Assembly: GCF_009363655.1 (NCBI RefSeq)
Contig: NZ_CP045394.1
Location: 1 to 64,000, forward strand
Direction: 5' to 3'
Length of the DNA: 64,000 nt
From: Roseovarius sp. THAF27
GTDB lineage: Bacteria; Pseudomonadota; Alphaproteobacteria; Rhodobacterales; Rhodobacteraceae
Positions within the stretch are counted from its first letter, which is position 1. Each line of letters starts with the position of its first letter. The notes beneath the pieces are model-generated. The model was given only the letters and a program-made list of their open reading frames with translations. It was not told where the DNA came from and searched no databases. A program made the position numbers and the translations under genes. Shown piece after piece: positions 50,351 to 63,889 of this stretch.

Positions 50351-52670
50351 TGCGGTTGACGCGGTCACCGGCGAGGTCTTTCGGGACGGCTGGAGCCGGA
50401 TCCGGGGCTCGATGCAGGGGCTGAATGTCGCCAAGCAGAGCCAGCTTGTGCGCGCGGCGGCAGGGCATCGGCCAGCGGTCTTCAAGGCGATCCGGGGCGG
50501 CGGTACGCATACCAAATCACAGCTCACAAACCAGCTCGAGTACCTCACTACCAAGTCCACCCATATCGTGGACTCGAGCGGATTTCTGGATGGAAAGGCG
50601 AAGCTCGAGGCGGGTGACATCAAGGACCTGACCGAGCGCTTTGCCAAGCGGTGGGGTGCGGGCTTCAAACCCAAGCTGGGCCAGACCACCCATATGCTCA
50701 TGTCCTTCCCCATCGGAACGCGCGGGGAGGATGTGCGCGACATCGCGACGGATGTGGCCGAGCGGTTCTTCCAGAGTGACGCGAGGCATTTCGACTACAT
50801 CATCGCGGTGCACGAGGACCGCGATCACCCCCATGCGCATCTGGTGCTGAACCGCCGCTCGCAGGAAGGCGAATTCTTCTTTCTGGGGCGCAACCACCGC
50901 TTCAACTATGACGACTTCCGTCTCGCCATGGTCGAGGAGGCCGAGAAGTATGGCGTGCGCCTCGAAGCCACGCGGCGGGTCGATCGCGGGGTTGTGCATT
51001 ACCCCGCCCCTACCCGCGAAGTCTATGCGGCGAAGGAAGAGGGCCGCGCGCCCCGCGAGCGGGAACGTGTGGGGACCGACCTGACCCGGACGCTGGCGGA
51101 GATCGCCAACACAAGAACCGTCTACCATTCGCTTGCTGCGGAGGCTTCACGCGAGGCGCGGGAAGACATCGCCGCTGCCCTCTTCCGCGCGGGCGAGGTG
51201 CTGGCGCGCGGCGGGCAGGTGCATAGAACAGGAGATGTGTATATGGCCGAGGATCAGAGTTTCGAGGACCTGAGAAGCCTCTATGCGGAGAAGCTCACGC
51301 GGGTGCAGGGCATGATCGCCGAGAAGTCTGACGCGGAACGTCCCGCGTTGGAAAAACGCCTCATCGAGATCCAGACGCAGGTCCAGCACATGCAGCCTCT
51401 CGGTTTGCGATCATCCACGCTGTCAGAGACCCCCTCGGAGGGCGGGATCTATTCTGAGGCCAATATCGACACCAAACAGCTAGAACGTCTTGCCGAGCCG
51501 GACTTGCGGGCGCGCATTGACGCGGCCCTGCGGGGTACCGGGATCAGCACATCGGAAGTGGTGGCCCGGATCGAAACCGGGGCGTCAAACGCAGCACTCG
51601 AGCACCAATGGATCGCCAACGATCTTGCCAAAGTGGCCGAGGCGCGGGACCTGAACCTCGAACGCCGCGCCGATCTGGAACAAGCGCGCGACATTCTCAA
51701 CGATGTGCATGTCGCGCTCGGCACGCTGCTGGAACGGGAGAACGTGCTGCGCCGGGATGGCATCGTGGAGGAGAACGCGGTCAGCGAGCGGTTCCATTAT
51801 CACGAGGGTGCAGTGCAGGCGATGGAAGGGACCATCCGTCAGGAGATGCGCGCCGAGGGTTTGACCGCGCAGCAAATCGAGGACCGGGACTGGGAGGTTG
51901 TCTCGCGGGCGGAGCGCCGGATCGAGACGGAGCAGCGCGCATATCTCGAGGCACATCCGGACCTGCTCGCACGCCCGGGCGATGTGTTCGACAGGTCCCA
52001 GCCCTACAGGGAGACCATCACCGATGCAGCTCGCGCCAGCGAAATCACCCGCGAGGTCGAAGGGGTCATGGAGGTACGCGACCTCCGCACGCCCGTTGCG
52101 GATGCTGTCGCAGATGACTTGCGCGCGCGCTATCCGGACATGCCGTCCCACCTCGCCCGCGGGCTTGGCGCGACCTACGCGGCCGTCGTCGAGATCCGGG
52201 ACACGGAAGCCATCAATCAGGTCCGCCGCGACAAGGAGTTGCGCGACGGGCTCGGGTCTGGCACGCGCGACGAAACCCTCGCGACCCGCGATGAAACTGC
52301 GATGCAGTCTGACCGAACCGACCGCCTCGCAGACGAGATTGCGCGTGTCCTGGACCATGAGCGGGCGGGGGAGTTGTCCGCGCCCTTCGAGACCGAGGCG
52401 GAGCGGGACGCTTTCCGCGGCGAGATCGCGCGGGTGCTGGACGTTCGCCAACTCGAGCGCCTCACATCCGGCGATGCCGATGCGCTGGACAAGGTTCTCG
52501 AGGACCGCCTCGACCGGCTCTATGTCGCCAAAGTCTACCTGCAATCTGATGCAGCGACGGCCAATACGGAGGCCTTGCGCCAGGTGGTCGATGAACTGGC
52601 CGATGCTGAGTATGAAAAACACCGCGCGACGGACGTGGATGGCAAGACCGAGCGGGGTCAGGTCCATTGA
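50337..52670 (+). CDS. VirD2-like relaxase (MOBP group)
   Basis: Nicks oriT and leads the transferred strand into the recipient. 777 residues from ATG 50337 (GAGGGAG upstream). The relaxase domain is N-terminal (about 30-230): LTNQLEYLTTKSTHIVDSSG supplies the catalytic Tyr region, and HEDRDHPHAHLVLNRR (159-174) is the metal-binding HxDxxxPHxH motif. The remainder is a long helical region rich in Glu and Arg with coiled-coil character (ERRADLEQARDILNDVHVAL). It overlaps mobC upstream and the coupling-protein gene downstream. Confidence 0.9.
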   Translation: MRLNDAVDAVTGEVFRDGWSRIRGSMQGLNVAKQSQLVRAAAGHRPAVFKAIRGGGTHTKSQLTNQLEYLTTKSTHIVDSSGFLDGKAKLEAGDIKDLTERFAKRWGAGFKPKLGQTTHMLMSFPIGTRGEDVRDIATDVAERFFQSDARHFDYIIAVHEDRDHPHAHLVLNRRSQEGEFFFLGRNHRFNYDDFRLAMVEEAEKYGVRLEATRRVDRGVVHYPAPTREVYAAKEEGRAPRERERVGTDLTRTLAEIANTRTVYHSLAAEASREAREDIAAALFRAGEVLARGGQVHRTGDVYMAEDQSFEDLRSLYAEKLTRVQGMIAEKSDAERPALEKRLIEIQTQVQHMQPLGLRSSTLSETPSEGGIYSEANIDTKQLERLAEPDLRARIDAALRGTGISTSEVVARIETGASNAALEHQWIANDLAKVAEARDLNLERRADLEQARDILNDVHVALGTLLERENVLRRDGIVEENAVSERFHYHEGAVQAMEGTIRQEMRAEGLTAQQIEDRDWEVVSRAERRIETEQRAYLEAHPDLLARPGDVFDRSQPYRETITDAARASEITREVEGVMEVRDLRTPVADAVADDLRARYPDMPSHLARGLGATYAAVVEIRDTEAINQVRRDKELRDGLGSGTRDETLATRDETAMQSDRTDRLADEIARVLDHERAGELSAPFETEAERDAFRGEIARVLDVRQLERLTSGDADALDKVLEDRLDRLYVAKVYLQSDAATANTEALRQVVDELADAEYEKHRATDVDGKTERGQVH

Positions 52671-52678
52671 GCGCTGCC

Positions 52679-54685
52679 ATGGGAAAAGCGCGGATCGCCA
52701 CCGGGGTGCTTCTCGTCACACTGGTGACCGCCGCCATGGGCTATACCATCGCCTCGGCGGTGCTGACCTACCAGGACCTTGGCTTCGGGGCCGAGATCGA
52801 CTTTGCCTATATCGCGCAGAACTATATGGCGATCCTCGATCGCCGCCCGGAGGACGCGCAACTTATTCACCTGATCATCGGCAGCTTCGCCGCTGCCGGC
52901 CTGATGCTGAGCCTCGCTCTTTCGGGATCGGCCCTCACACGCTTTGGCCAGACCCATTGGCAGTCTGCGCGCGAGATGAAGGCCAATGGGTTTTTTGGCG
53001 CACCCGGCACCGGATTTATCCTCGGCAAGCTCGGCTCTCCGAGGTCCCGCGCGAAATACATTTGCTCGAAAGTTTTCCCCCATGCGCTGATCGTGGCGCC
53101 CACGGGCCGCGGCAAGACCACGGGCTTTGTCATTCCGAACCTGCTGACCTGGCAAGGCTCCGCCGTGACGCTCGATGTGAAGGGCGAGTGTTTCGAGGCC
53201 ACGGCCCGGCACCGCGCGGCCCAAGGCGACAAGGTCTATCGCTTTGCCCCTACCGATTGGGAGGGCAAGCGCACGCATCGCTACAACCCGCTCCTGCGCA
53301 TCTATCAACTGAAAGACCCCGCGCGCCAGCAGATGGAATTGCAGCTCCTGGCGACGCTCTTCCTGCAAAGTGACAACGACCGGGTGCAGGGCCTGCTCAA
53401 AGGCGGGATCGATCTCTTCGTGGCGGCTGGCCTGTTGGCCTTCCAGCGCAAGCGCCCCACCTTGGGCGAGATCTACCGCATCGCAGCCTCGGGCGGGAAC
53501 AAGCAGAAAGAGTATTTCGCGCGGGGTCACGAGGTCGACAACAGGGCGGCCAAACTGATCTTCACGCGGCTCGCTTCGACCAATAACGACACGCTGACCT
53601 CCTATGTCTCGCTCCTGATGACCTCGGGGCTCGACCAATGGCAGAACCCGGCTATTGATGATGCGACGGCGGTCTCGGATTTTGATTTCCGGACGATCCG
53701 CAAGAAGCCCTTCTCGGTCTATCTCGTGGTCCAGCCGCTGATGGTGAAGCCCCTCGCGCCGTTGATCCGTCTCTTCTTCTCTGATCTCCTCTCTGCCATG
53801 CAAGAAAAGGACCCCGGGCCGGATGAGCCTTGGCCGGTGATGATCATGCTCGATGAGTTCAATCGCCTGGGCAAAATGCCCATCGTGGTCGAGAGCATCG
53901 AGACCTTACGGACCTATCGCGGCCACCTAGCCGTGGTCACCCAGACGATCCCCGCCCTCGATGAAATCTATGGCGAGAATACCCGCCGTGCCCTGCAGGG
54001 CAACGCGGGGGTGAAGCTCTACCTGACACCGTCAGATGAAAAAACCGTCGAGGAGCTGAGCAAGGCGGTCGGCAAGACCACCAAGACTGTCGTCACGCGA
54101 TCTCAATCAATCGGCAAGAACCCCTTTGAAGGGCGCAGCCAATCCACACGGACCGAAGAAAGCTCCTTGCTGCCTGAAGATGAGGCGCGCCGCCTGCCGC
54201 TCGACGAGATCGTCATGGTGATCGATGCGCAAATGCCGGTCCGTGCAAAGCGGATCCAATATTTTGACGACCGGCTGTTCAAGGCGATCCATGCGGCGCA
54301 GACAGGGGAGTTGCCGTTTCCGGAGCCGGGGGGAGGGGGAGCGCAAGGCACGCTGCCGCTGAGTGTTCAAGCGATGCCGATGACACCGCCTGCGAGTGGA
54401 GGGCATGGACCTGAAACTGACGCGGTTGTGGAGAGCGCAAGACAAGTTCCGGGCAGTCAAACGTTAGGGCAAATCGACGTCGCCCCAAAGAAGACCGTGC
54501 CTGTCGTTCAAGCTGTGATCGCCCAGGAACAGCGACAGATGGAGTTGGATTTTGGGGACCAGGTTGCGGATGCCGAGACAGTGGGCGTGGATGATGAGGC
54601 GCAGATGCGCTCTGCCGTTGGTGGCTTGGACGACATGGAAGCGATGCTGCGAAAAGGGGATGGCGAAAAGAGGGTTGCTCGATAG
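52679..54685 (+). CDS. virD4: Type IV coupling protein (VirD4/TraG)
   Basis: Inner-membrane ATPase that feeds the relaxase-DNA complex to the type IV secretion channel. 668 residues from ATG 52679 (a TTG at 52667, overlapping the relaxase stop, is an alternative). Two N-terminal membrane helices (GVLLVTLVTAAMGYTIASAV, SFAAAGLMLSLALSGSAL), Walker A ALIVAPTGRGKTTGF (about 140), Walker B VMIMLDEFNRLGKM (about 389) and a Gly/Pro-rich, acidic C-terminal tail. It ends at the left border of the inserted island. Confidence 0.93.
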   Translation: MGKARIATGVLLVTLVTAAMGYTIASAVLTYQDLGFGAEIDFAYIAQNYMAILDRRPEDAQLIHLIIGSFAAAGLMLSLALSGSALTRFGQTHWQSAREMKANGFFGAPGTGFILGKLGSPRSRAKYICSKVFPHALIVAPTGRGKTTGFVIPNLLTWQGSAVTLDVKGECFEATARHRAAQGDKVYRFAPTDWEGKRTHRYNPLLRIYQLKDPARQQMELQLLATLFLQSDNDRVQGLLKGGIDLFVAAGLLAFQRKRPTLGEIYRIAASGGNKQKEYFARGHEVDNRAAKLIFTRLASTNNDTLTSYVSLLMTSGLDQWQNPAIDDATAVSDFDFRTIRKKPFSVYLVVQPLMVKPLAPLIRLFFSDLLSAMQEKDPGPDEPWPVMIMLDEFNRLGKMPIVVESIETLRTYRGHLAVVTQTIPALDEIYGENTRRALQGNAGVKLYLTPSDEKTVEELSKAVGKTTKTVVTRSQSIGKNPFEGRSQSTRTEESSLLPEDEARRLPLDEIVMVIDAQMPVRAKRIQYFDDRLFKAIHAAQTGELPFPEPGGGGAQGTLPLSVQAMPMTPPASGGHGPETDAVVESARQVPGSQTLGQIDVAPKKTVPVVQAVIAQEQRQMELDFGDQVADAETVGVDDEAQMRSAVGGLDDMEAMLRKGDGEKRVAR

Positions 54686-54730
54686 GGTGGCGTGCATGGT
54701 TTATATGTTGGGGAGGCGGGAAGCATGCGT

Positions 54731-56082
54731 AATTGGGCTGACCCTGCTCTGAGGTCGAGCTCCCGATAAGATCACAGCAATGCTGTGAGAATGGGAGACA
54801 GAGAATGGACTATTTTGTTTGTTCGGATATTTCGCTGCGATCTTGCGCGGTCTGCATTGTTGATGCACGTGGCAAGGTCTGCTTGGAGCGGGAACTGCAC
54901 TGCGAGGTCGACGACATTGCAGATTGCCTGGATGGTTTTGGACATCCAATCGCGCGTGTCGGCTTCGAGGCTGGAGCGTTCAGCTAGCACCTTTTCTTTG
55001 GTTTGCAAGAAAAGGGTTCGACATCGTTTGTATGGAAGCTCGGCAGGTCAGTGCGGCGCTATCAGCGATGCGGAAAAAAACCGACAAAACGGATGCGAAA
55101 GGCATTGCACATATACTGCGTACGGGGTGGTTCAGTCCCGTGCACATGAAGAGCCGCGAGGCGCATGGCGCGCGCGTTGCTGAGCACCAGAAAGGCATTG
55201 CTCAAGAAGACTATTGATCTGGCCAACGAGGTTCGCGGCTTATTGAAGATATTTGGCGTGCGTCTGCCAAGAACGGTCAAACATGGCAGCTTCGACGCCC
55301 TTGTCCGCCCAATGATCGAGTTGGACGAGGTGCTCGCACATGCGGTCATTCCACTGCTGGATGCGCGCGCTGTGCTTTTCCAGAACTATCTTGAACTGGA
55401 TCGCAGGGCGAAGCGCGCAGCGTCGCAAGATGAAGTTTGCATGCGGATGATGACCGTGCCTGGCGTCGGCCCGATCGCTGCGTTGACATTCAAGGCGGCG
55501 GTCGATGACCCAAACCGTTTCAAACGTTCTTGCACGGTGGCTGCGCACTTTGGCCTCGCGCCAAGGCGATACCAGTCGGGCGAGCACGATAATCCAGGCC
55601 GCATCTCAAAAGCGGGCGATCAAGATGTACGAGCCACTCTCTACGCCGCCGCAAATGCTCTGCTTATGCGTACGATGGCTAAATCTCAGATCAAGTCATG
55701 GGGAATGCGATTGATGCGCACAAAGGGGCGACGGCGCGCTGTTTTTGCTGTCGCACGTAAGCTCGCTGTGCTTCTTCACCGGATGTGGGTTGATGGCACG
55801 GAATTCCGTCAGGAACAGGTGGGAGGAACGGCATGACCTGAATAGCCGAACACCTAACCTGACGGGATCGTCCAATCCGGACGAGGTCTGTGGATGAAGA
55901 CGAAAATGTCTGCTGCGCAATGTGAAGCGCGCCGGGAAGCAGGGCTCTCCACAACCAATCGGACACATGCATGCAGCGGCGCCTTTCGAACGTCAAACCA
56001 GACTGCGAAGAGAAGCGTGACCCGGATAAGCGATCCAAAGCGGAAAAACGAAAGGAAACGAGCTTGACCCAGACACCCAATT
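54731..56082 (+). mobile_element. Degenerate IS110-family element
   Basis: About 1,350 bp. Near each end AATTGGG (54731-54737) and CCCAATT (56076-56082) are inverted, with weaker matching beyond. It contains a transposase gene with one nonsense change and two frameshifts, and 250 or so non-coding bases downstream, the IS1111-like layout. Not closely related to the intact copy at 23997. Ends are approximate. Confidence 0.6.
54805..55836 (+). pseudogene. IS110-family transposase, broken
   Basis: Reads as one DEDD/IS116-type transposase when corrected. ATG 54805 starts FVCSDISLRSCAVCIVDA..., reaching GFEAGAFS and a TAG (54985-54987) in place of a sense codon; KGFDIVCMEARQVSAALSAM and KTDKTDAKGIAHILRTGWFS continue in a shifted frame. 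A second shift follows REAHG (about 55165), after which ALLSTRKALLKKTIDLANEV to VPGVGPIAALTFKAAVDDP and HFGLAPRRYQSGE run to 55836. Inactive as encoded. Confidence 0.85.
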
Positions 56083-56257
56083 AGCGAAGCTGACCTTCGC
56101 TGCGTGAGCGTTTGCGCCTGGCAAGACCAGCGATAGCTGACATTCAGCAACGGCGCTACCGTTGTATGGACCTGCATAGGCCCATCACTGATTCAGTGTT
56201 CGCAAATTGTTCTGATTTCGCTTGACCGAGATTTCAACACAACATATTTGTTGCGTC
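55837..56257. other. Non-coding 3' part of the decayed IS110 element and island leader
   Basis: No supported gene. The first 245 bases belong to the element; about 175 more lead to the DUF6932-like gene and must hold the island promoter, though no consensus promoter stands out. Confidence 0.4.
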
Positions 56258-56698
56258 ATGACTTTAGTGTACGATTCGTCCACAGGCTACCTTGCTCCCG
56301 GCGTCCATATTGTGACCTGGGATGAACTGGTCGCTCTATGTTCGGTCAATCAGCACCGAACGCGCTTGGTTGGCGGCCTCAAGAGTGCCGCCCTTAACCT
56401 CGGGGGAGCAGGCTGCACGTTGTTGCTTTTGGATGGAAGTTTCGTGTCTGAGAAGGACCTACCAAACGACTATGATGGCGCTTGGAGCCCAGTTGGCATG
56501 AACCCTTACCTTGTAGATCCGGTGCTGCTCGATTTTTCGCCATCCGGACGCGCGGCAATGAAAGCTAAGTACGGCGGAGAGTTGTTCCTAGAGAGCGCGG
56601 TCGCCGCACCCGGTGTACTTTTTCGTGACTTTTTTCAATCCGACAGAAGTGGAAACGCCAAAGGAATACTGTCTCTAGACCTAGGGAGCATCAAATGA
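56258..56698 (+). CDS. DUF6932-like protein, first gene of the island
   Basis: 146 residues from ATG 56258 (start uncertain; an in-frame TTG lies at 56222). APGVHIVTWDELVALCSVNQ, LVGGLKSAALNLGGAGCTLL, LLDGSFVSEKDLPNDYDGAW and LDFSPSGRAAMKAKYGGELF follow the DUF6932 pattern, in which the DGSF...D-D part resembles a nucleotidyltransferase active site. Such proteins are often partnered with an HTH gene in toxin-antitoxin-like pairs. Its stop overlaps the next start (ATGA at 56695). Confidence 0.72.
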   Translation: MTLVYDSSTGYLAPGVHIVTWDELVALCSVNQHRTRLVGGLKSAALNLGGAGCTLLLLDGSFVSEKDLPNDYDGAWSPVGMNPYLVDPVLLDFSPSGRAAMKAKYGGELFLESAVAAPGVLFRDFFQSDRSGNAKGILSLDLGSIK

Positions 56699-58158
56699 TC
56701 ACCAATGAGCGCCAATACAAAATTACTCGAGCAAATGCCGAGAAGTTTAAGGCTGCGATTGATGGCTTTGATGTCGCAGAGAGAGAGAAGGCCGGCATAC
56801 ACCCGACCTTTATTGAGGCCGAGCTTAGTGGCTTGAATAGCCAACTGGTCGACCTTGAAGAAGAAATCCGAGCATATGAGGAGCTGCAGTCAATGCAAGC
56901 TCCCGTTATTACGGTGGAGCGGATTGAAGACCTAGCCGAGGGCTTGATTGCAGCAAGGATTGCTTCCGGACTTTCTCAGCGTGAACTCGCGGAGAGGATG
57001 GGACTCAAACCTCAGCAGATCCAACGCTATGAATCGGATAAGTACTCGAGTGCAAGTCTAGCCAGAATTATTCAAGTAACAGAAGCACTCAATATTGAAC
57101 TTAGAAACGAAATACTGGTCCCGTACCAACCTGATGGTTTCGAAGGAGTTTTGCAGAAGCTATCTCAGGTAGGCTTGGACGCAGCTTTCCTAAGATCTAA
57201 ACTTCTGAGCTCAGCGGATGAAAGCAGGTTTAGCGCTCTTTCCGATGGGTCGCCGCAAGAGGCACCAACAGTTGTTGACCGCTCGATAGAAGCGGTTTCG
57301 AGAGTCTATGGTTGGGCCAAAGACCAGCTTTTCTCGGCGCATCCCTTGAGTGTGCCAGCAATAGCTGGAGCGCAAGCAAGGTTCAAAATGCCAGCAAAGC
57401 GAGACGCTGATCAAACAGCTCTTTATGCGACATATGCCAATTATCTGGCCCGACTTGTGTTGAATGCGACGCCGGTAATTGAAGGCCCAGCGGTACCTGA
57501 TGAGCCGGAAGAATTTCTGAGACTGTTCCACGAAAACTATGAAGAGTTTGGTTTCCGAGACTTGCTAAACTTCTCTTGGGATTTGGGTATCCCAGTGGTG
57601 CCATTGCGAGACGGGGGGCAATTTCACGGAGCATGTTGGAGAATATCAGGCAGAAATGTCATTGTAATGAAACAAAAGACTCCACATGTAAGTCGATGGA
57701 TATTCGACTTACTGCATGAGCTTTACCACGCATCTCAACGACCCGAAGAAACTGACTTCGTGATTTTGGAGGCTGCCGAAACTTCCGAGGAGCGCCGTAG
57801 CTCCGATGAAGAGGTAAGAGCAAGTCAATTCGCTGGCGAGGTTGGTCTCTCGGGCCAGGCGGAAGAGCTCACGGCAATTGTCGTGGATAGAAGCCGCGGC
57901 GACATCAAAAGGGTCAAGTCCGTTGTTGCGCGCTTGGCCGAGGAGAGGGGCGTGGACGTTGGATTGCTCGCAAATTACCTAGCATTTCGCCTTCAGATGC
58001 AAGGGATCAACTGGTGGGGAGCTGCGGCGAACCTCCAGCGAGGTGGCGGGGATCCTTGGATGGTCGCGAGGGATGTGTTTTGCGAACGGTTTTCCTTTGA
58101 TGGCCTAGACGACGTCGATGGTTCAATTTTGCAACGAGCTCTTGAGAGGAATTATTGA
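56695..58158 (+). CDS. XRE-family HTH plus ImmA/IrrE-like metallopeptidase
   Basis: 487 residues. After a helical N-terminus (about 1-80, LSGLNSQLVDLEEEIRAYEE) comes an XRE HTH (AARIASGLSQRELAERMGLK, QQIQRYESDKYSS; about 85-140). The C-terminal half has an ImmA/IrrE-type zinc peptidase motif, SRWIFDLLHELYHASQ (HExxH about 344). Phage and ICE regulators of this kind cleave or release repressors after stress. It may sense damage or infection and switch the downstream operon. It overlaps its neighbours on both sides (ATGA and TGATG). Confidence 0.82.
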   Translation: MITNERQYKITRANAEKFKAAIDGFDVAEREKAGIHPTFIEAELSGLNSQLVDLEEEIRAYEELQSMQAPVITVERIEDLAEGLIAARIASGLSQRELAERMGLKPQQIQRYESDKYSSASLARIIQVTEALNIELRNEILVPYQPDGFEGVLQKLSQVGLDAAFLRSKLLSSADESRFSALSDGSPQEAPTVVDRSIEAVSRVYGWAKDQLFSAHPLSVPAIAGAQARFKMPAKRDADQTALYATYANYLARLVLNATPVIEGPAVPDEPEEFLRLFHENYEEFGFRDLLNFSWDLGIPVVPLRDGGQFHGACWRISGRNVIVMKQKTPHVSRWIFDLLHELYHASQRPEETDFVILEAAETSEERRSSDEEVRASQFAGEVGLSGQAEELTAIVVDRSRGDIKRVKSVVARLAEERGVDVGLLANYLAFRLQMQGINWWGAAANLQRGGGDPWMVARDVFCERFSFDGLDDVDGSILQRALERNY

Positions 58159-58745
58159 TGAAACCCTTGGTCGAACTCAAACCACTCAAGATTAGCTGCA
58201 CGGATAGCGATTGCGATAACGGTCTTCACTGTTTCAAGACGACGCGACAGATGGGGCGTAAGGAGCGTGGAAGTTGTCGGTCTTGCGGTGCCAAGCTTAT
58301 CGACTGGCCGCGGCTGCATAAAAGATCAATCGAAGATGCTGAATTCACTTTCGAGGCGCTTCGAAATGAAAAAATTAGGCATCATTTCTTTCACGTTGAG
58401 ATTGATCAGCGTGCAAAGAACTACGCCAAGCGAAAGGGTTGGTTGAAGCTTCGAGAAGCAGTCGAAAGTAGGATCAGAAAGTACGTGGCGAAGGCAGGGA
58501 ACCCGCGTGATGGGCGGCAAACACCGTTCGAAGACAATCCAATCTTCTATGCACAGCACGCAACCGCCACATGCTGCCGAACCTGCCTCAACTACTGGCA
58601 TGACATCTCCAAAGGCCACGATTTGACTGATGAGGAGGTAGACTACTGCGCGGACCTAATTGAGATGTATCTTCGAGAGCGCCTGGACGACGTTGAAGAC
58701 GGGCCACAGCGTGTTCCCCCGATCCGGTCAAAGATTATGGGGTAG
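58158..58745 (+). CDS. Cysteine-rich, probably zinc-binding protein of unknown function
   Basis: 195 residues. The N-terminus has a Cys/His cluster (ISCTDSDCDNGLHCFKTTRQ then GSCRSCGAKL) like a treble-clef or zinc ribbon; the C-terminal half has a second one (TATCCRTCLNYWHDISKGHD). Between them lies a basic helical segment (KNYAKRKGWLKLREAVESRI). No named family recognised. ATG 58158 overlaps the upstream stop; the radical SAM gene starts 11 bases after its end. It may bind nucleic acid or act as a scaffold for the next two enzymes. Confidence 0.7.
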   Translation: MKPLVELKPLKISCTDSDCDNGLHCFKTTRQMGRKERGSCRSCGAKLIDWPRLHKRSIEDAEFTFEALRNEKIRHHFFHVEIDQRAKNYAKRKGWLKLREAVESRIRKYVAKAGNPRDGRQTPFEDNPIFYAQHATATCCRTCLNYWHDISKGHDLTDEEVDYCADLIEMYLRERLDDVEDGPQRVPPIRSKIMG

Positions 58746-58756
58746 GGGGTCGAGAG

Positions 58757-59779
58757 ATGCTCAGAGGCGTTATCAATACGGAGCAACAGGCAGAGCATCT
58801 GCGCAATAAATCGGTCAGCGCATCTGAACGGCGTGTGCTGCTTTCCAAGCTAAGCGGCTCCGACCAAGAAGCTGACCTAAGCGTTCCGACGAATTGTGAA
58901 GGCTTCGGTCGAGTTCGTCACTTCAAAACCTCAACGGCTCCGAGCTGGCCGTCCAACCCACTGCCAATCCTGCCGGCGGCGAAGGCTCTAGGGCTCCCGG
59001 ACGGCCAGACTGCCATGGAAGCACAAGTCTATCAAAACGCGGCTTGCCCTTGGCGATGCTGGTACTGTTTCGTTCCTTATCCACTACTGAGCGCCAACCC
59101 AAAAAAGTCGAAGTGGTTCACGATATCGGAGCTAGTAGACCTCTTCGAGAATGAGGCAGATGGGTGTCCGAGAGTCATCGATCTATCAGGTGGGTCGCCG
59201 GATTTGGTCCCAGAATGGCCAGTTTGGATGATGGAAGAGCTGGAGGCCAGAGGACTCGATCATCAGACGTTTCTATGGTCGGACGACAATCTCAGCACTG
59301 ACTGGCTTATGACTAAGCTGTCGAAGTCGCAGCTGGAGCGAATGCAGTCTTACAAGAATTACGGTCGGGTTTGCTGCTTCAAAGGTATCGATGAAAGGTC
59401 ATTTGCGTTTAACACAAATGCAGAGCCAAGCGGCTTTGAGTTCCAGTTACAAGTAATGGATAGGCTGCTGGACCTCGATCTCGACGTCTATGGCTACATC
59501 ACGCTTACCGACCCAACGTCTGACAACATCGATTCTCGGATGAGCGCCTTCTTCGACCGTTTGCAGACCATTCATGAATTCCTCCCCCTTCGCATAATCC
59601 CACTGCAGATTGGCGTCTACGGTCCAGTGGAGCCGAGAATGAATGACGAGTTTGATGCCAGCCTTGCTATACAAGAAGTGGCAATCCAGCACTGGAACGT
59701 GGAAATCGAAAAAAGGTTCTCACTCGAAGATCGTCAACGGCCAATCACGGACGTGAGCTTGCGGAGGTCTCAGGTATGA
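58757..59779 (+). CDS. Radical SAM enzyme
   Basis: 340 residues with GGGGTCGAGAG before the ATG. The [4Fe-4S] motif is AACPWRCWYCFVPYP (CxxxCxxC, about 97-104), followed by the SAM-binding GGxP-like motif in VIDLSGGSPDLVPEW. The rest fits a partial TIM barrel (HQTFLWSDDNLSTDWLMTKL, LDVYGYITLTDPTSDNIDSR). No SPASM cluster is evident. Substrate unknown. Its stop overlaps the methyltransferase start (ATGA), implying that the two act together. Confidence 0.85.
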   Translation: MLRGVINTEQQAEHLRNKSVSASERRVLLSKLSGSDQEADLSVPTNCEGFGRVRHFKTSTAPSWPSNPLPILPAAKALGLPDGQTAMEAQVYQNAACPWRCWYCFVPYPLLSANPKKSKWFTISELVDLFENEADGCPRVIDLSGGSPDLVPEWPVWMMEELEARGLDHQTFLWSDDNLSTDWLMTKLSKSQLERMQSYKNYGRVCCFKGIDERSFAFNTNAEPSGFEFQLQVMDRLLDLDLDVYGYITLTDPTSDNIDSRMSAFFDRLQTIHEFLPLRIIPLQIGVYGPVEPRMNDEFDASLAIQEVAIQHWNVEIEKRFSLEDRQRPITDVSLRRSQV

Positions 59780-61143
59780 AACACGCGCCGATCGATCTCT
59801 GGTCGTTCGAAAGCAGGGTAGAGTTCTGGCTTCTAAAGTCGCTATCGGCGGGCGTCACTAGCTTCTCAAGTCTGCTTGCAGAACTCCCCGGAGTGTACCC
59901 CACTGCCGCAATGGCGGGAATTCGTCGTCTAGTCAAAAGTGGGCGCATTTCAGTCGAGATGGGCCGAAAGCTAGCTCTCCAAGCACGTGTCGCATCAAGC
60001 CCCACTTCAACTTATGCCGAACTTCCACCGCCGCATCCGTTGGATTTCGAATGGAGATTCAACCAGGAGACTTCTGAAGCACTCGCTTCTCGAGCTGTGA
60101 TTCCCAGTGCACGACGTTTTGGAAGGACGCTTTGCCTTGGCGTCCCGACAGTCGCCTTGGCCGCAATCAAGCTAGGTTTGGGTCAACACGCCGACTTCTT
60201 GGGAGAAGCCAACGAGATTTCAACGGCTGTAAGCGAACATGCACGAAGAAGGGCTAGCTCGCTCTCAACACATTTCGGTTCGAGCCGGGCTTCTTCGGCG
60301 TCCTATGCGAGTGTAGTTCTAGATCCTCCTTGGTATGATGATTGTCTTCACGAGATGATTCCGCTGGCGGCTTCTGCTTGCCAGCACAACGGTACCGTGT
60401 TCGTGGTCGCTGCCCCATTCGGTTCGAGAAGATCGGCGATCGATCATCGCGCCAATCTGATTTCCATTGCTGAACAGTGCGGTCTGGTTCTGGCAAATCA
60501 AGTTCCAGCATTCGCGAGGTATCAGACCCCTTTCTTTGAAGCCAATGCTCTTAAGGCCGCTGGCTTAGCGGTACCCGGAGATTGGAGGACGGCCGACTTG
60601 CTCGAGTTCCGAAAAGCCGGTGTTGGGAGCAGCCTGCCTTTGAAGGCTCGAACAAGGCCTCGCCCGTGGCACGAACTCTCCGTCGGTCGGATGCGTCTAT
60701 TTATCGACGTGTCTCAACCAGATGAGCATGGAGGCGATGTCACACTAAATAGCATCGTTGCAGGTGACGTATTGCCTACAGTGAGCAGGCGCGACGGACG
60801 GAGGACGCGGGCAAACGTTTGGACGTCTGGCAACCGCATCTTTCGGTGCAACAGGCCAAATGAGTTAGTTGCTGCACTCGAAGGAGACTTGTTGGCGCTT
60901 CCAGAATTTTACCATCGCGATCCATGTCGACCCTATTACCACAGAAATTTCCAACGATACGCTACGTTGAAGTTCCACCTTCAGAAGCTCTCCGCTAAAG
61001 AGCTGCAGGAAGAGAAGGAGCACTTTGGTGGGAACAGTGGCGCGGCGCGAAGAATTGCTTCACGAACTCAGCGCGAGGTTGCGTTCGCACAACTTTTGGG
61101 GTCCGCTCCTCGCAGAGATCCTTTGCAGCCGTTTGGACAGTAA
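59776..61143 (+). CDS. DPPW-motif (MT-A70-like) methyltransferase
   Basis: 455 residues. The N-terminus looks like a winged helix (SSLLAELPGVYPTAAMAGIR, RLVKSGRISVEMGRK; about 30-70). FGRTLCLGVPTVALAAIKLG may form the SAM-binding loop, and SVVLDPPWYDDCLHEM (DPPW at about 184) is the catalytic motif of MT-A70-type adenine-N6 methyltransferases. TVFVVAAPFGSRR follows as a core strand. The long C-terminal region is unassigned. Target (DNA, RNA or nucleotide) cannot be told. It sits between the radical SAM and ASCH genes without gaps. Confidence 0.75.
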   Translation: MKHAPIDLWSFESRVEFWLLKSLSAGVTSFSSLLAELPGVYPTAAMAGIRRLVKSGRISVEMGRKLALQARVASSPTSTYAELPPPHPLDFEWRFNQETSEALASRAVIPSARRFGRTLCLGVPTVALAAIKLGLGQHADFLGEANEISTAVSEHARRRASSLSTHFGSSRASSASYASVVLDPPWYDDCLHEMIPLAASACQHNGTVFVVAAPFGSRRSAIDHRANLISIAEQCGLVLANQVPAFARYQTPFFEANALKAAGLAVPGDWRTADLLEFRKAGVGSSLPLKARTRPRPWHELSVGRMRLFIDVSQPDEHGGDVTLNSIVAGDVLPTVSRRDGRRTRANVWTSGNRIFRCNRPNELVAALEGDLLALPEFYHRDPCRPYYHRNFQRYATLKFHLQKLSAKELQEEKEHFGGNSGAARRIASRTQREVAFAQLLGSAPRRDPLQPFGQ

Positions 61144-61144
61144 G

Positions 61145-61546
61145 TTGCACGTGGCGATCTTTTCAGAACCATTTTTGTCGTTCCTCAAAGCTGGACAGAA
61201 AACAGTAGATACGCGCTTGTCCTCGGTGAGGTGCGCTCCCTACGGCCATGTATCCTCGGGTGACCTCGTTCTTGTGAAAGAAAACTCTGGGCCGATCACT
61301 GCAGTAACAAGAGTCTCCGATGCTGAGTATTTTGCTACTGCGCATCACTCGTTGGATGCAATTAGGGCCGACTATGGCACTAGGATCTTGGCTGGAGATG
61401 ATTTCTGGCGATCAAAGCAGTACGCTAGGTTTGCTTCCGTTATTCACGTTGAGCAAACCACAGAGTTTGCACCGATCGAATTTGCGAAAACTGACAGACG
61501 AGGATGGGTCGCGCTGGATGACGACCAGTTGGAGTTTGCTTTTTGA
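61145..61546 (+). CDS. ASCH-domain protein
   Basis: About 133 residues; start uncertain (TTG 61145 or GTG 61151, both directly after the methyltransferase stop at 61143; the frame is open further upstream). VAIFSEPFLSFLKAGQKTVD TRL contains the ASCH signature GxKxx(E/D)xR, and SSGDLVLVKENSGPITAVTR is the following strand pair. ASCH domains bind RNA or modified nucleosides; some hydrolyse N4-acetylcytidine. Here it could recognise the product of the upstream enzymes. It overlaps the kinase start. Confidence 0.78.
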   Translation: MHVAIFSEPFLSFLKAGQKTVDTRLSSVRCAPYGHVSSGDLVLVKENSGPITAVTRVSDAEYFATAHHSLDAIRADYGTRILAGDDFWRSKQYARFASVIHVEQTTEFAPIEFAKTDRRGWVALDDDQLEFAF

Positions 61547-62085
61547 CTGGCAAGGTAGTCCTCGCTTTTTCCGGGCAGATAGGCAGTGGCAAAAGTTCAC
61601 TGGCAAAAGCAATCAGTGACGAGTTTGGTTTTCCCCGAATAAGCTTTGGCGGCTACGTCAGGCATTTGGTTCGACAGTCTGGCGGAGACGAGAGTGACAG
61701 AAAATCACTTCAAGACGAGGGCGAAAGACAGGTCGATAACGACCCAAGTGCGTTCCTATTGGCGACACTCAATTATCACGATGTTGACAAAGCAAACTCC
61801 TTTGTTGTTGAAGGCTTGAGACATACTTCGATCCTGAACGAGATGCGCAAGTTCTTCGGAACAGATCTTATCCACATTCATTTGGAGGCTGCCGATCAAA
61901 TTGCCTTCGTGCGTGCGGTAGCACGCGGAGACGACCCAAAGGTCGTGGAGCGCGCTTTGCGACACACAGTCGAGGCCGACGTGGCGATAACGTTGCGCGA
62001 AGCCGCCGACTTAGTGCTTGCCGCTTCTGAAACGTTGTCGGAACTGACAACGCAAGTTGTTCCGTTGGTTGAATCGAGAACCTGA
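61543..62085 (+). CDS. P-loop nucleotide/nucleoside kinase-like protein
   Basis: 180 residues from a TTG at 61543 overlapping the ASCH stop, with GGAG upstream. LAFSGQIGSGKSSLAKAISD is the Walker A loop (10-18), SFVVEGLRHTSILNEMRKFF the Walker B-like strand, and RAVARGDDPKVVERALRHT a lid-like segment. Overall it resembles adenylate, dephospho-CoA or phage deoxynucleotide kinases. Last gene of the island operon on this strand. In a modification pathway it could phosphorylate a modified nucleotide; that is inference. Confidence 0.78.
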   Translation: MTGKVVLAFSGQIGSGKSSLAKAISDEFGFPRISFGGYVRHLVRQSGGDESDRKSLQDEGERQVDNDPSAFLLATLNYHDVDKANSFVVEGLRHTSILNEMRKFFGTDLIHIHLEAADQIAFVRAVARGDDPKVVERALRHTVEADVAITLREAADLVLAASETLSELTTQVVPLVESRT

Positions 62086-62195
62086 CGGACAAGAAAAGCA
62101 CGGAACACGGACATCCGCTGTTGCGAGGTTGACCTGGAGGAAACCTCCCTTCCGTAAGCCTCGTAGAGCGTGATAGTTGTAGCAGATTGCTGCTG

Positions 62196-62606
62196 TCAGA
62201 AGTTCTCGATCCTCAGTATCGCTTTGATTTCTTTCGCACGTTCCGCCAACGGGGAATTGGTGTGATAAACACTATCAATGAACCCTTGAGCCCATTCTAG
62301 TAGTTCATTCAGGCGCTCAGGTGGATCTGGCCGAAAGGCTTGGTTGGCGTGGACGATATTGTTCCTGATCGTTCTAAGCTGTCTGTAGCAATTCTCGAAT
62401 ACCGACTTCTCTTGGTCGAACTCGATGTCCACGTAGCGGTAGTCTTCGATGTTGCCGTCGTAGCGGCCAGGAACCCCGATCGACTTTAACTCGTCAAAGA
62501 GATCTCGTGGAAGGTCGGGTGAGGTCTCGTGAAAGTGCTTGATTGCCCCTTCGAACGCCATCTCGTTCAATACCAAGCTAATGAGCTTGCGTTCTTGCTG
62601 GTTCAT
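62196..62606 (-). CDS. Small HEPN-like helical protein, convergent to the island operon
   Basis: 136 residues, nearly all helical (KLISLVLNEMAFEGAIKHFH, KSVFENCYRQLRTIRNNIVH, RLNELLEWAQGFIDSVYH). RNNIVHA matches the Rx4-6H motif of HEPN RNases, and its setting at the start of a helix after a conserved acidic helix is typical. HEPN toxins are common in defence and toxin-antitoxin loci. No antitoxin partner is seen next to it on the minus strand. The ribosome site (AGTCTGGCAGC) is weak. Confidence 0.6.
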   Translation of the reverse strand: MNQQERKLISLVLNEMAFEGAIKHFHETSPDLPRDLFDELKSIGVPGRYDGNIEDYRYVDIEFDQEKSVFENCYRQLRTIRNNIVHANQAFRPDPPERLNELLEWAQGFIDSVYHTNSPLAERAKEIKAILRIENF

Positions 62607-62809
62607 GCTGCCAGACTCCCAACCTTAGCATATTCTAACGTGCGTGCGCTCAGCGAAGCAACGTATTGGCGAGGTAGTTGACTTTCTTGATCAGACCGAA
62701 ACGTACCATCAGTTCGCTGCCGACATGATTTCGCTTTTACGCCGAATGGCAGCAATGCGGACTGCGAATGCAGCATCTTGACCCGTTGGTGAACGGCAGG
62801 AATGGGCCG
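62607..62809. other. Right border region of the island
   Basis: About 200 bases between the HEPN-like gene and the virB6 end. No gene or clear attachment site seen; composition changes here from AT-richer island to GC-rich transfer genes. Confidence 0.4.
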
Positions 62810-63889
62810 TCACCGCCTGCCGAGGCGACCCAACCTTGAAAGCTGCGCCAGCATTCGGGCTCCTGTGCCGGTTGCGTCACCGGAAGGAGCTGCGGTTGGC
62901 CCACCCGCAGTATTGGGTCGGCTTGGCAACGCTTGCACACCAAAGAATTGGCGCGCACGCAGAGCTGCGTACTCCGCGCCAGTCGCACCTCCGATGGCGT
63001 ATCGGTTGTAGACTTGCTGGCTTCCTGCGAGCCCTCGGGCAAAGGCATAGCTGCCGCCGAAGCCGGCTGAGAGCGCTGGCATCATGATGTTTCCAGAAAT
63101 CGCCCGCACCAGGAATGGCGTTGCTATGATAAATCCCTTTGCCATCAGCACCATCATGAAGAAGGGGATGAGCGCGCCGATGTTGGAGGCGCCTTCCGGG
63201 TCGCCCAACTCAGCAAGAAGCGCACGCGAGACCCCCGTGATCGTCGCGAACACGCCAGCCACGACGATAGGGTACATCGCGAAGGAAATCAGCGCCGAAA
63301 GCCAGCGTGCGAAATAATCCTTGGTCACTTCAAAGAGGGTCAGGAAGATCATGATCGGTGCAATCCCGATCAGCAGAGCGATCATGAGCCTGGACGCAAC
63401 GACGATGAACGCAGCCAAGCCACCGAGGATTGAGAGCAGCAAAACCCCAAGGGTGTCCAACAGGGCACCGGCCATCCAGTTCAGTTCAGACCCCGCGGCA
63501 TTCAAATAGTCCCCGAGCGCCGCGATCAGGTCATCGAACTCCTCTGCGAAGGTGCCAGACGGTCCGGGTGATCCGCCGCCGACCGAGGCCACAAGCGACC
63601 CGGCAGTGCTGTCGATCCCGTTCAGGATCGCCGCAGCAAGGATGTTGAACTGTACCCAGTTGGTTGCAAATGCGCCTATCAGCCCGATCTTCACGGCGAG
63701 CCAAAAGGCGGTGCGACCGTCCATGGCGCGATACTGGTAGATCGTGTTGATGAAAACCAGAATGACGACGAGTGTGGTGCCGAGGACGAGCATCGTTCCG
63801 ACTGTTGCGGCGACTGCGCCGAATTGCGTCTCGGCAGCGGTATTGAGATAGCCTTCAGCCGTTTCCACGAAGTAGGTGACGACGCTCAT
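62810..63889 (-). CDS. virB6: VirB6-family type IV secretion channel protein
   Basis: Polytopic inner-membrane part of the conjugation channel. 359 residues with five or more hydrophobic segments (VGTMLVLGTTLVVILVFINT, LLDTLGVLLLSILGGLAAFI, LMIALLIGIAPIMIFLTLFE, ALISFAMYPIVVAGVFATIT), the TrbL/VirB6 arrangement, and a Gly/Ala/Pro-rich C-terminal tail. TAGGATTCC precedes ATG 63889. It follows the gene at the window edge by 6 bases, so the virB operon continues to the right and is read leftwards. Confidence 0.88.
   Translation of the reverse strand: MSVVTYFVETAEGYLNTAAETQFGAVAATVGTMLVLGTTLVVILVFINTIYQYRAMDGRTAFWLAVKIGLIGAFATNWVQFNILAAAILNGIDSTAGSLVASVGGGSPGPSGTFAEEFDDLIAALGDYLNAAGSELNWMAGALLDTLGVLLLSILGGLAAFIVVASRLMIALLIGIAPIMIFLTLFEVTKDYFARWLSALISFAMYPIVVAGVFATITGVSRALLAELGDPEGASNIGALIPFFMMVLMAKGFIIATPFLVRAISGNIMMPALSAGFGGSYAFARGLAGSQQVYNRYAIGGATGAEYAALRARQFFGVQALPSRPNTAGGPTAAPSGDATGTGARMLAQLSRLGRLGRR

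Follow-up and report, generated by a model that had tools for sequence, protein, structure and literature searches.

Viperin, a radical S-adenosylmethionine (SAM) enzyme, converts nucleoside triphosphates to their 3′-deoxy-3′,4′-didehydro (ddh) forms. Prokaryotic viperins occur with nucleotide kinases, a radical SAM enzyme and a nucleotide-kinase-like protein being encoded together in an antiviral context. The same pairing is found in the seven-gene operon described here, which lies on a conjugative plasmid of Roseovarius sp. THAF27, in the first 64,000 nucleotides of contig NZ_CP045394.1 (assembly GCF_009363655.1, forward strand), hereafter the window. The operon is conserved and mobile, combines an enzyme core with a switch and occupies a slot for defence cargo between virD4 and virB6. 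The best explanation, with a probability of about 0.5, is that it constitutes a mobile anti-phage or anti-element defence system whose enzymes act on a nucleotide or nucleic acid. An antiviral function is probable and, given that function, a nucleotide or nucleic-acid substrate is reasonably likely. The genomic context supports a role in conflict; the chemistry we infer.

What does the slot hold in sister plasmids? The relaxase-virD4 region is common to 263 plasmid records. Seventeen relatives were opened, four from the best 15 of the 263 relaxase-virD4 matches and 13 from matches to virB6, the 13 being picked before their contents were visible. Both virD4 and virB6 are in view, closing the slot, in ten of the 17. 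Recognised anti-phage kinds are present in six of these ten, four confirmed by PADLOC and two, L117 and L126, identified by annotation only (Table 1; sister plasmids and other loci are cited by L number). The slot is therefore one where relatives keep known defence systems, as expected of mobile defence cargo. That a defence-associated reverse transcriptase (DRT), Gabija, Pycsar and two types of CBASS share it is the strongest evidence that the occupant in the window serves defence too. In the other seven relatives virD4 is not in view; next to virB6 are a phosphorothioate-dependent system in L119 (PbeA 771 bits) and an AriA/OLD-like ATPase in L115 (93 bits), with other cargo in L114, L116, L118, L122 and L125. 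We also note a SIR2 protein and ATPase (L111:5449-8390) and a TIR protein (L112:1338-2282) to the left of the relaxase, where a second defence slot is possible.

The genes are conserved as a set. Two peptide patterns taken from the radical SAM alignment were used to scan 84,980 species genomes, an approach that misses relatives lacking these patterns. This gave 92 relatives of the enzyme; 80 loci were kept and the other 12 were not viewed. Partner families were found by profile searches of the open reading frames (ORFs) at each locus, a locus being testable for a family where the contig reaches far enough. At least two partner families lie within 7 kb of the radical SAM gene in all 80 loci, and five or six in 63. 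The order XRE, DUF4186, radical SAM, (transferase), ASCH, kinase on one strand is kept in 41 of the 58 loci with full flanks, the remaining 17 being rearranged, without one gene or below the profile cut-off. The hosts, many of them represented by metagenome bins, belong to Pseudomonadota, Cyanobacteriota, Bacteroidota, Actinomycetota, Acidobacteriota, Chloroflexota, Planctomycetota and Verrucomicrobiota, and include a Paenibacillus and a Thaumarchaeota metagenome-assembled genome. Distances between partner proteins track those between the radical SAM enzymes (Mantel r 0.58-0.84; 0/500 permutations each), which supports joint inheritance and no more since related sequences share ancestry.

The radical SAM gene is rare. 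It was found in 2 of the 398 genomes sampled from the phylum and in 1 of 295 from the family, its own genome counted in both, and 22 carrier genomes contain a single copy each. Six of 72,556 plasmid records contain it, and the four that were opened all display the same seven families in the same order. Plasmid pTHAF8_a of Roseovarius sp. THAF8 has a 6.5-kb copy of the block that is 100% identical. The tree of the enzyme needs 24 changes of phylum label against a minimum of 14, which suggests transfer between lineages. For Tolypothrix PCC 7712, compared with PCC 7601, PMC9679502 lists an insertion of 18,401 bp that carries recombinase and integrase genes, and by the coordinates given there the operon of that strain falls within it. 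Phage-type integrases account for 6 of 144 nearest flanking genes. A phage origin was considered and rejected: a search of 50,697 phage records gave no relatives of the transferase, radical SAM enzyme or kinase, and one of IMG/VR viral contigs gave no relative of the radical SAM enzyme.

Table 1. Genes and borders of the operon in the window, and occupants of the corresponding slot in sister plasmids
Feature	Coordinates	Strand	Evidence or occurrence
DUF6932 protein, 146 aa	56258-56698	+	PF22014 85.9 bits; in 51/69 testable loci
XRE helix-turn-helix protein, C-terminal half ImmA/IrrE M78 zinc peptidase-like	56695-58158	+	in 67/71 testable loci
DUF4186 protein	58158-58745	+	PF13811 118.6 bits; in 72/76 testable loci
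Radical SAM enzyme	58757-59779	+	CxxxCxxC at 59045-59068; Radical_SAM 31.1 bits
BpsA-like transferase, optional component	59776-61143	+	helical N-terminal domain; Rossmann domain with DPPW at 60322-60333; no GDDD motif
ASCH-domain protein, PUA-like fold	61025-61546	+	start uncertain; in 62/70 testable loci
P-loop (deoxy)nucleoside-monophosphate-kinase-like protein	61543-62085	+	AAA_18 39 bits; in 63/67 testable loci
virD4, left border of block	52667-54685	+	
virB6, right border of block	62810-63889	-	TrbL/VirB6 126 bits (Pfam)
Cargo slot, virD4-virB6, roseobacter conjugative plasmid family	54686-62809	.	known anti-phage kinds in sister plasmids
L110 slot: UG9-type DRT with PolA-like partner			PADLOC RT_UG9_small (class DRT) 804 bits, RTasPolA 589
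L112 slot: Gabija			PADLOC GajA 886 bits, GajB 812
L113 slot: CBASS			PADLOC CBASS cyclase 373 bits
L117 slot: same CBASS set as L113			annotation only
L123 slot, Roseovarius THAF9 pTHAF9_a: Pycsar genes PycC, PycTIR	L123:5897-10072		PADLOC PycC 570 bits
L126 slot: CBASS with SAVED, Mov34, ThiF genes			annotation only
L120 slot: two toxin-antitoxin pairs and a helicase			
L111, L121, L124 slots: LysR regulator; two small ORFs; mer operon			no recognised defence genes

The initial annotation had described seven plus-strand genes with overlapping or near-touching ends, in a block richer in AT than the flanking transfer genes and separating virD4 from virB6. The ORF listing, the GC content (0.51-0.53 in the block, about 0.63-0.65 in the upstream transfer genes) and the Pfam match of virB6 agree with this account. 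The exception is the 1-base gap placed before the ASCH gene, which is probably wrong. A start at 61025/61028 is likelier than 61145 because relatives share the N-terminal stretch, and the gene would then overlap that of the transferase by about 115 bases. The DUF4186 gene starts with ATG at 58158, for which the ORF listing gives TTG at 58155. The range first proposed, 56258-62606, is filled by the seven genes up to 62085; the rest includes a small HEPN-like ORF on the minus strand between the operon and virB6 (62196-62606), whose matches to DUF6548 and RiboL-PSP-HEPN are both below the Pfam cut-off. An IS110 transposase (54785-55836) lies just upstream of the operon and seems to be divided between two reading frames, of which the second (55165-55836) matches positions 124-342 of model NF033542 and the first was judged by eye. 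Neither the transposase pieces nor the HEPN-like ORF was seen to recur with the unit. The spacing and conserved order of the seven genes suggest that they are co-transcribed. Promoter- and terminator-like sites are no more frequent than in shuffled sequences, and Rfam gave no match at gathering score in 54600-63000.

In the window, Pfam matches above cut-off were obtained for DUF6932, HTH_3, DUF4186, Radical_SAM and AAA_18 (39.0 bits), and no family was found for the DPPW and ASCH genes themselves. The ASCH assignment comes from relatives, with L053 matching PF04266 at 23.4 bits (cut-off 21.2); of the other two tested one scored less than this cut-off and the other gave no match. Sequence searches of the PDB returned nothing useful for DUF6932, XRE, DUF4186, the radical SAM enzyme, the transferase or ASCH. 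The profile search with the kinase was led by adenylate and UMP-CMP kinases (E 3e-6 to 4e-5), and this protein also matches the deoxynucleoside-monophosphate (dNMP) kinase family phrog_139 at 35.8 bits.

The first two genes form the front end. DUF6932 contains a GS-x8-DYD motif, present in 55/58, which at the level of sequence resembles what we take to be a minimal nucleotidyltransferase motif. In the following protein HTH_3 matches residues 85-136 (45.7 bits), the HExxH motif is intact at 57715-57729 and kept in 73/75, and the XRE part is weakly similar to the regulators RmrA and spr1629. This XRE/M78-like protein is likely the switch. Seven other DUF6932 loci were opened. One is a full operon, two show no XRE gene and four hold DUF6932-XRE without the enzyme genes, three of the four with a short XRE protein of about 140 aa. 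The pair thus occurs as an independent two-gene unit, as toxin-antitoxin (TA) regulators do. Thirteen loci have no DUF6932 and carry a DUF4160-like gene at its position (three were tested with Pfam, two of them above cut-off). Since DUF6932-XRE can stand without the enzymes and DUF6932 can be replaced, the two genes make up an exchangeable cassette, regulatory or TA-like, that is coupled to the enzymes. At L139:7320-10289 DUF6932 and a 425-aa XRE protein lead a different gene set, the next ORF being of 366 aa, and this is possibly a further system governed by such a switch.

The enzyme core begins with DUF4186, in which a CCRxC motif is conserved in 75/76 and an N-terminal, zinc-ribbon-like cysteine pattern in 73/76. 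The annotated DUF4186 protein of pTHAF8_a starts too late, and the longer frame contains the cysteine pattern. DUF4186 also occurs without the set at L144 and as E. coli YneG (PMC9283627). The radical SAM enzyme belongs to a family of 3302 homologues at E 1e-3, and the fold of its predicted structure comes closest to that of pyruvate-formate-lyase activating enzyme (PFL-AE). It therefore combines a PFL-AE-like fold with CxxxCxxC, as glycyl-radical activases do. Identification as a viperin was rejected, given a fold nearer to PFL-AE and a PADLOC pVip match of 16.3 bits, as was identification as QueE (TIGR03365, 12.2 bits against a cut-off of 206.1). The DPPW protein is predicted to have the fold of BpsA, a polyamine aminopropyltransferase, with 10-14% identity; its gene is present in 62 and missing in 13 of 75 testable loci. 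A distant BpsA-like relative on a Loktanella plasmid (L005:9938-12345) adjoins a metallophosphoesterase gene in a locus without the radical SAM gene and with a NaeI-type restriction system nearby.

Some copies carry accessory genes. In five cyanobacterial loci the kinase gene has a dGTPase-type HD hydrolase gene as its neighbour, and in four of them the two share a strand. Between DUF4186 and the radical SAM gene L043, L056, L057, L059 and L069 have a gene of the dCTP-deaminase/dUTPase (DCD) fold, checked by Pfam in three; its product has, judged by eye, a hydrophobic C-terminus and might be a membrane effector or a nucleotide sensor. In three copies from Alphaproteobacteria (L002, L018 and L020) the kinase gene is overlapped or followed by a gene for a DUF763 protein. 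These accessory genes favour nucleotides or nucleic acids over proteins as the target.

A plausible mechanism can be outlined. The HTH-metallopeptidase protein would hold the operon silent until its HExxH half relieved repression on infection or DNA damage. The radical SAM enzyme with its cysteine-rich DUF4186 partner would then alter a nucleotide or nucleic acid by radical chemistry, the kinase would phosphorylate the (modified) nucleotide, and ASCH might bind or hydrolyse the modified base. Where present, the BpsA-like enzyme could transfer a group from SAM or a SAM relative to an amino nitrogen, and the lineage-specific dGTPase, dCTP-deaminase/dUTPase-like protein and HNH protein may deplete nucleotides or act as effectors. 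One specific version we put forward tentatively: the PFL-activase-like enzyme and zinc-ribbon-like DUF4186 would generate a radical-modified deoxynucleotide or nucleobase, to be activated by the kinase and recognised or edited by ASCH, with an ImmA-type protease switch in control.

How do the proposals of the initial annotation stand? That the genes form a conserved, mobile set is supported, and the evidence from the slot favours defence. A methyltransferase as the finishing step is not borne out, in view of the BpsA fold and the 13 loci that dispense with the gene, and no result supports the suggested sequence of reactions from kinase through radical SAM enzyme to methyltransferase. Homologues standing singly beside unrelated neighbours, which had been named as telling against a system, were not seen for the radical SAM enzyme, accompanied by at least two partner families in all 80 loci; they do occur for DUF6932-XRE, for DUF4186 (YneG, L144) and for the transferase relative of L005. 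The statement that no named defence system has this gene set holds for PADLOC-DB 2.0.0 (2023) and the literature searched. In that database the core matches no system model. Apart from the pVip match, DUF4186, the BpsA-like protein and ASCH gave none, and matches were weak for the kinase (at most 15.6 bits), XRE (at most 22 bits) and DUF6932 (candidate model PDC-M63A, 24.7 bits), with E up to 1. None of the titles and abstract openings listed describes the gene set, and no mention of DUF6932 was found in the literature searched, which covered no bioRxiv preprints and few subscription papers.

Several observations weigh against a defence system acting on nucleotides. The core set has no obvious effector, and relatives of three of its enzymes are absent from the phage records. 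The slot is not exclusive to defence, because three of the ten hold non-defence cargo and one holds TA pairs with a helicase, and the annotation of L117 splits its CBASS phospholipase into two pieces. The Peptidase_M78 match of the XRE protein is 14 bits, below the Pfam cut-off of 22. PFL-AE, the fold class to which the radical SAM model is nearest, acts on proteins rather than nucleotides. The flanking genes do not decide the question: 144 of 279 candidates, the nearest on each side at 81 loci, hit 145 PADLOC families compared with 91 for 144 of the 145 ORFs in 20 arbitrarily chosen 8-kb stretches on contigs of 20 carrier genomes, figures affected by redundant models and chosen control stretches. 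Among the matches listed, the control itself hit SngA-C, BREX-, HerA-, PDC-S11-, DpdJ- and PD-T4-6-type models.

Four other explanations should be weighed. The operon might hypermodify plasmid and host DNA (or tRNA) as protection against restriction, with ASCH reading the mark and the kinase supplying a modified deoxynucleoside triphosphate (dNTP). ASCH/PUA domains are predicted or known binders of modified bases (PMC7641849), and the dNMP-kinase-like protein, the DUF4186 cysteine pattern and a dGTPase that could remove the competing dNTP at five operons would suit such a role. We nevertheless regard it as unlikely, for the core includes no nuclease or reader to punish unmodified DNA, and the phage records and viral contigs, where such pathways are expected, lack the relatives described above. 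A radical or cross-link placed on a protein, perhaps DUF4186, with the other enzymes decorating it, would accord with the PFL-AE-like fold. The glycyl-radical motif R[VIL][SACT]G[YFW] was found in none of the profile-matched parts of 506 core proteins, a search that did not extend to flanking genes or to a precursor peptide, and the kinase, ASCH, dGTPase and DCD genes point to nucleotides; protein or peptide modification is rather unlikely.

Plasmid addiction, in which DUF6932-XRE is antitoxin or regulator and the enzyme set a slow toxin, draws on the TA-like occurrence of that pair without the enzymes in four of seven loci, on the weak likeness to RmrA and spr1629 and on the TA pairs that fill the slot in L120. 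Five enzymes far exceed the needs of a toxin and several copies lie on very long contigs, one of them (L067) titled chromosome, leaving addiction quite improbable. Ordinary accessory metabolism, such as polyamine or cofactor chemistry with no part in conflict, might explain a transferase of BpsA-like fold and would match the mer and other metabolic cargo in or around the slot. It sits poorly with patchy presence, carriage on plasmids and an insertion, the ImmA-like switch and the defence cargo of the same slot, and is very improbable.

If the operon is indeed a mobile defence system acting on nucleotides or nucleic acids, radical chemistry would be the central step of a system whose gene set matches none that we found described, and DUF4186 (E. 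coli YneG), DUF6932 and a large unnamed radical SAM family would gain their first biological setting. Should the product be a radical-modified deoxynucleotide or nucleobase, this would be a second radical SAM antiviral pathway besides viperin, distributed across bacterial phyla and perhaps archaea. The virD4-virB6 gap of roseobacter conjugative plasmids is a slot for defence cargo in which further, as yet unknown systems can be sought.

Comparison with known systems places the operon apart from each. It differs from PFL-AE and the glycyl-radical activases, as its proteins, in the parts searched, are without the glycyl-radical motif. Relative to BpsA, the operon protein has a long extra C-terminal part and a G-T-P-type motif in place of GDDD, presumably the substrate motif of BpsA; G-T/V-P aligns at this place, judged by eye, with G122 and P124 invariant in 29 rows. 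Defence by dCTP deaminase or dGTPase depletes nucleotides, and genes for dGTPase or DCD-fold proteins do occur in some copies of the operon, but as accessory, lineage-specific additions and not in the core. The (PIN)-GNAT-EVE operons described in PMC7641849 likewise encode ASCH together with a P-loop protein of AAA_17 type and, in some cases, an XRE domain. No GNAT, PIN or EVE domain was seen in our operon, which instead joins ASCH and its P-loop kinase to the radical SAM, DUF4186 and BpsA-like genes.

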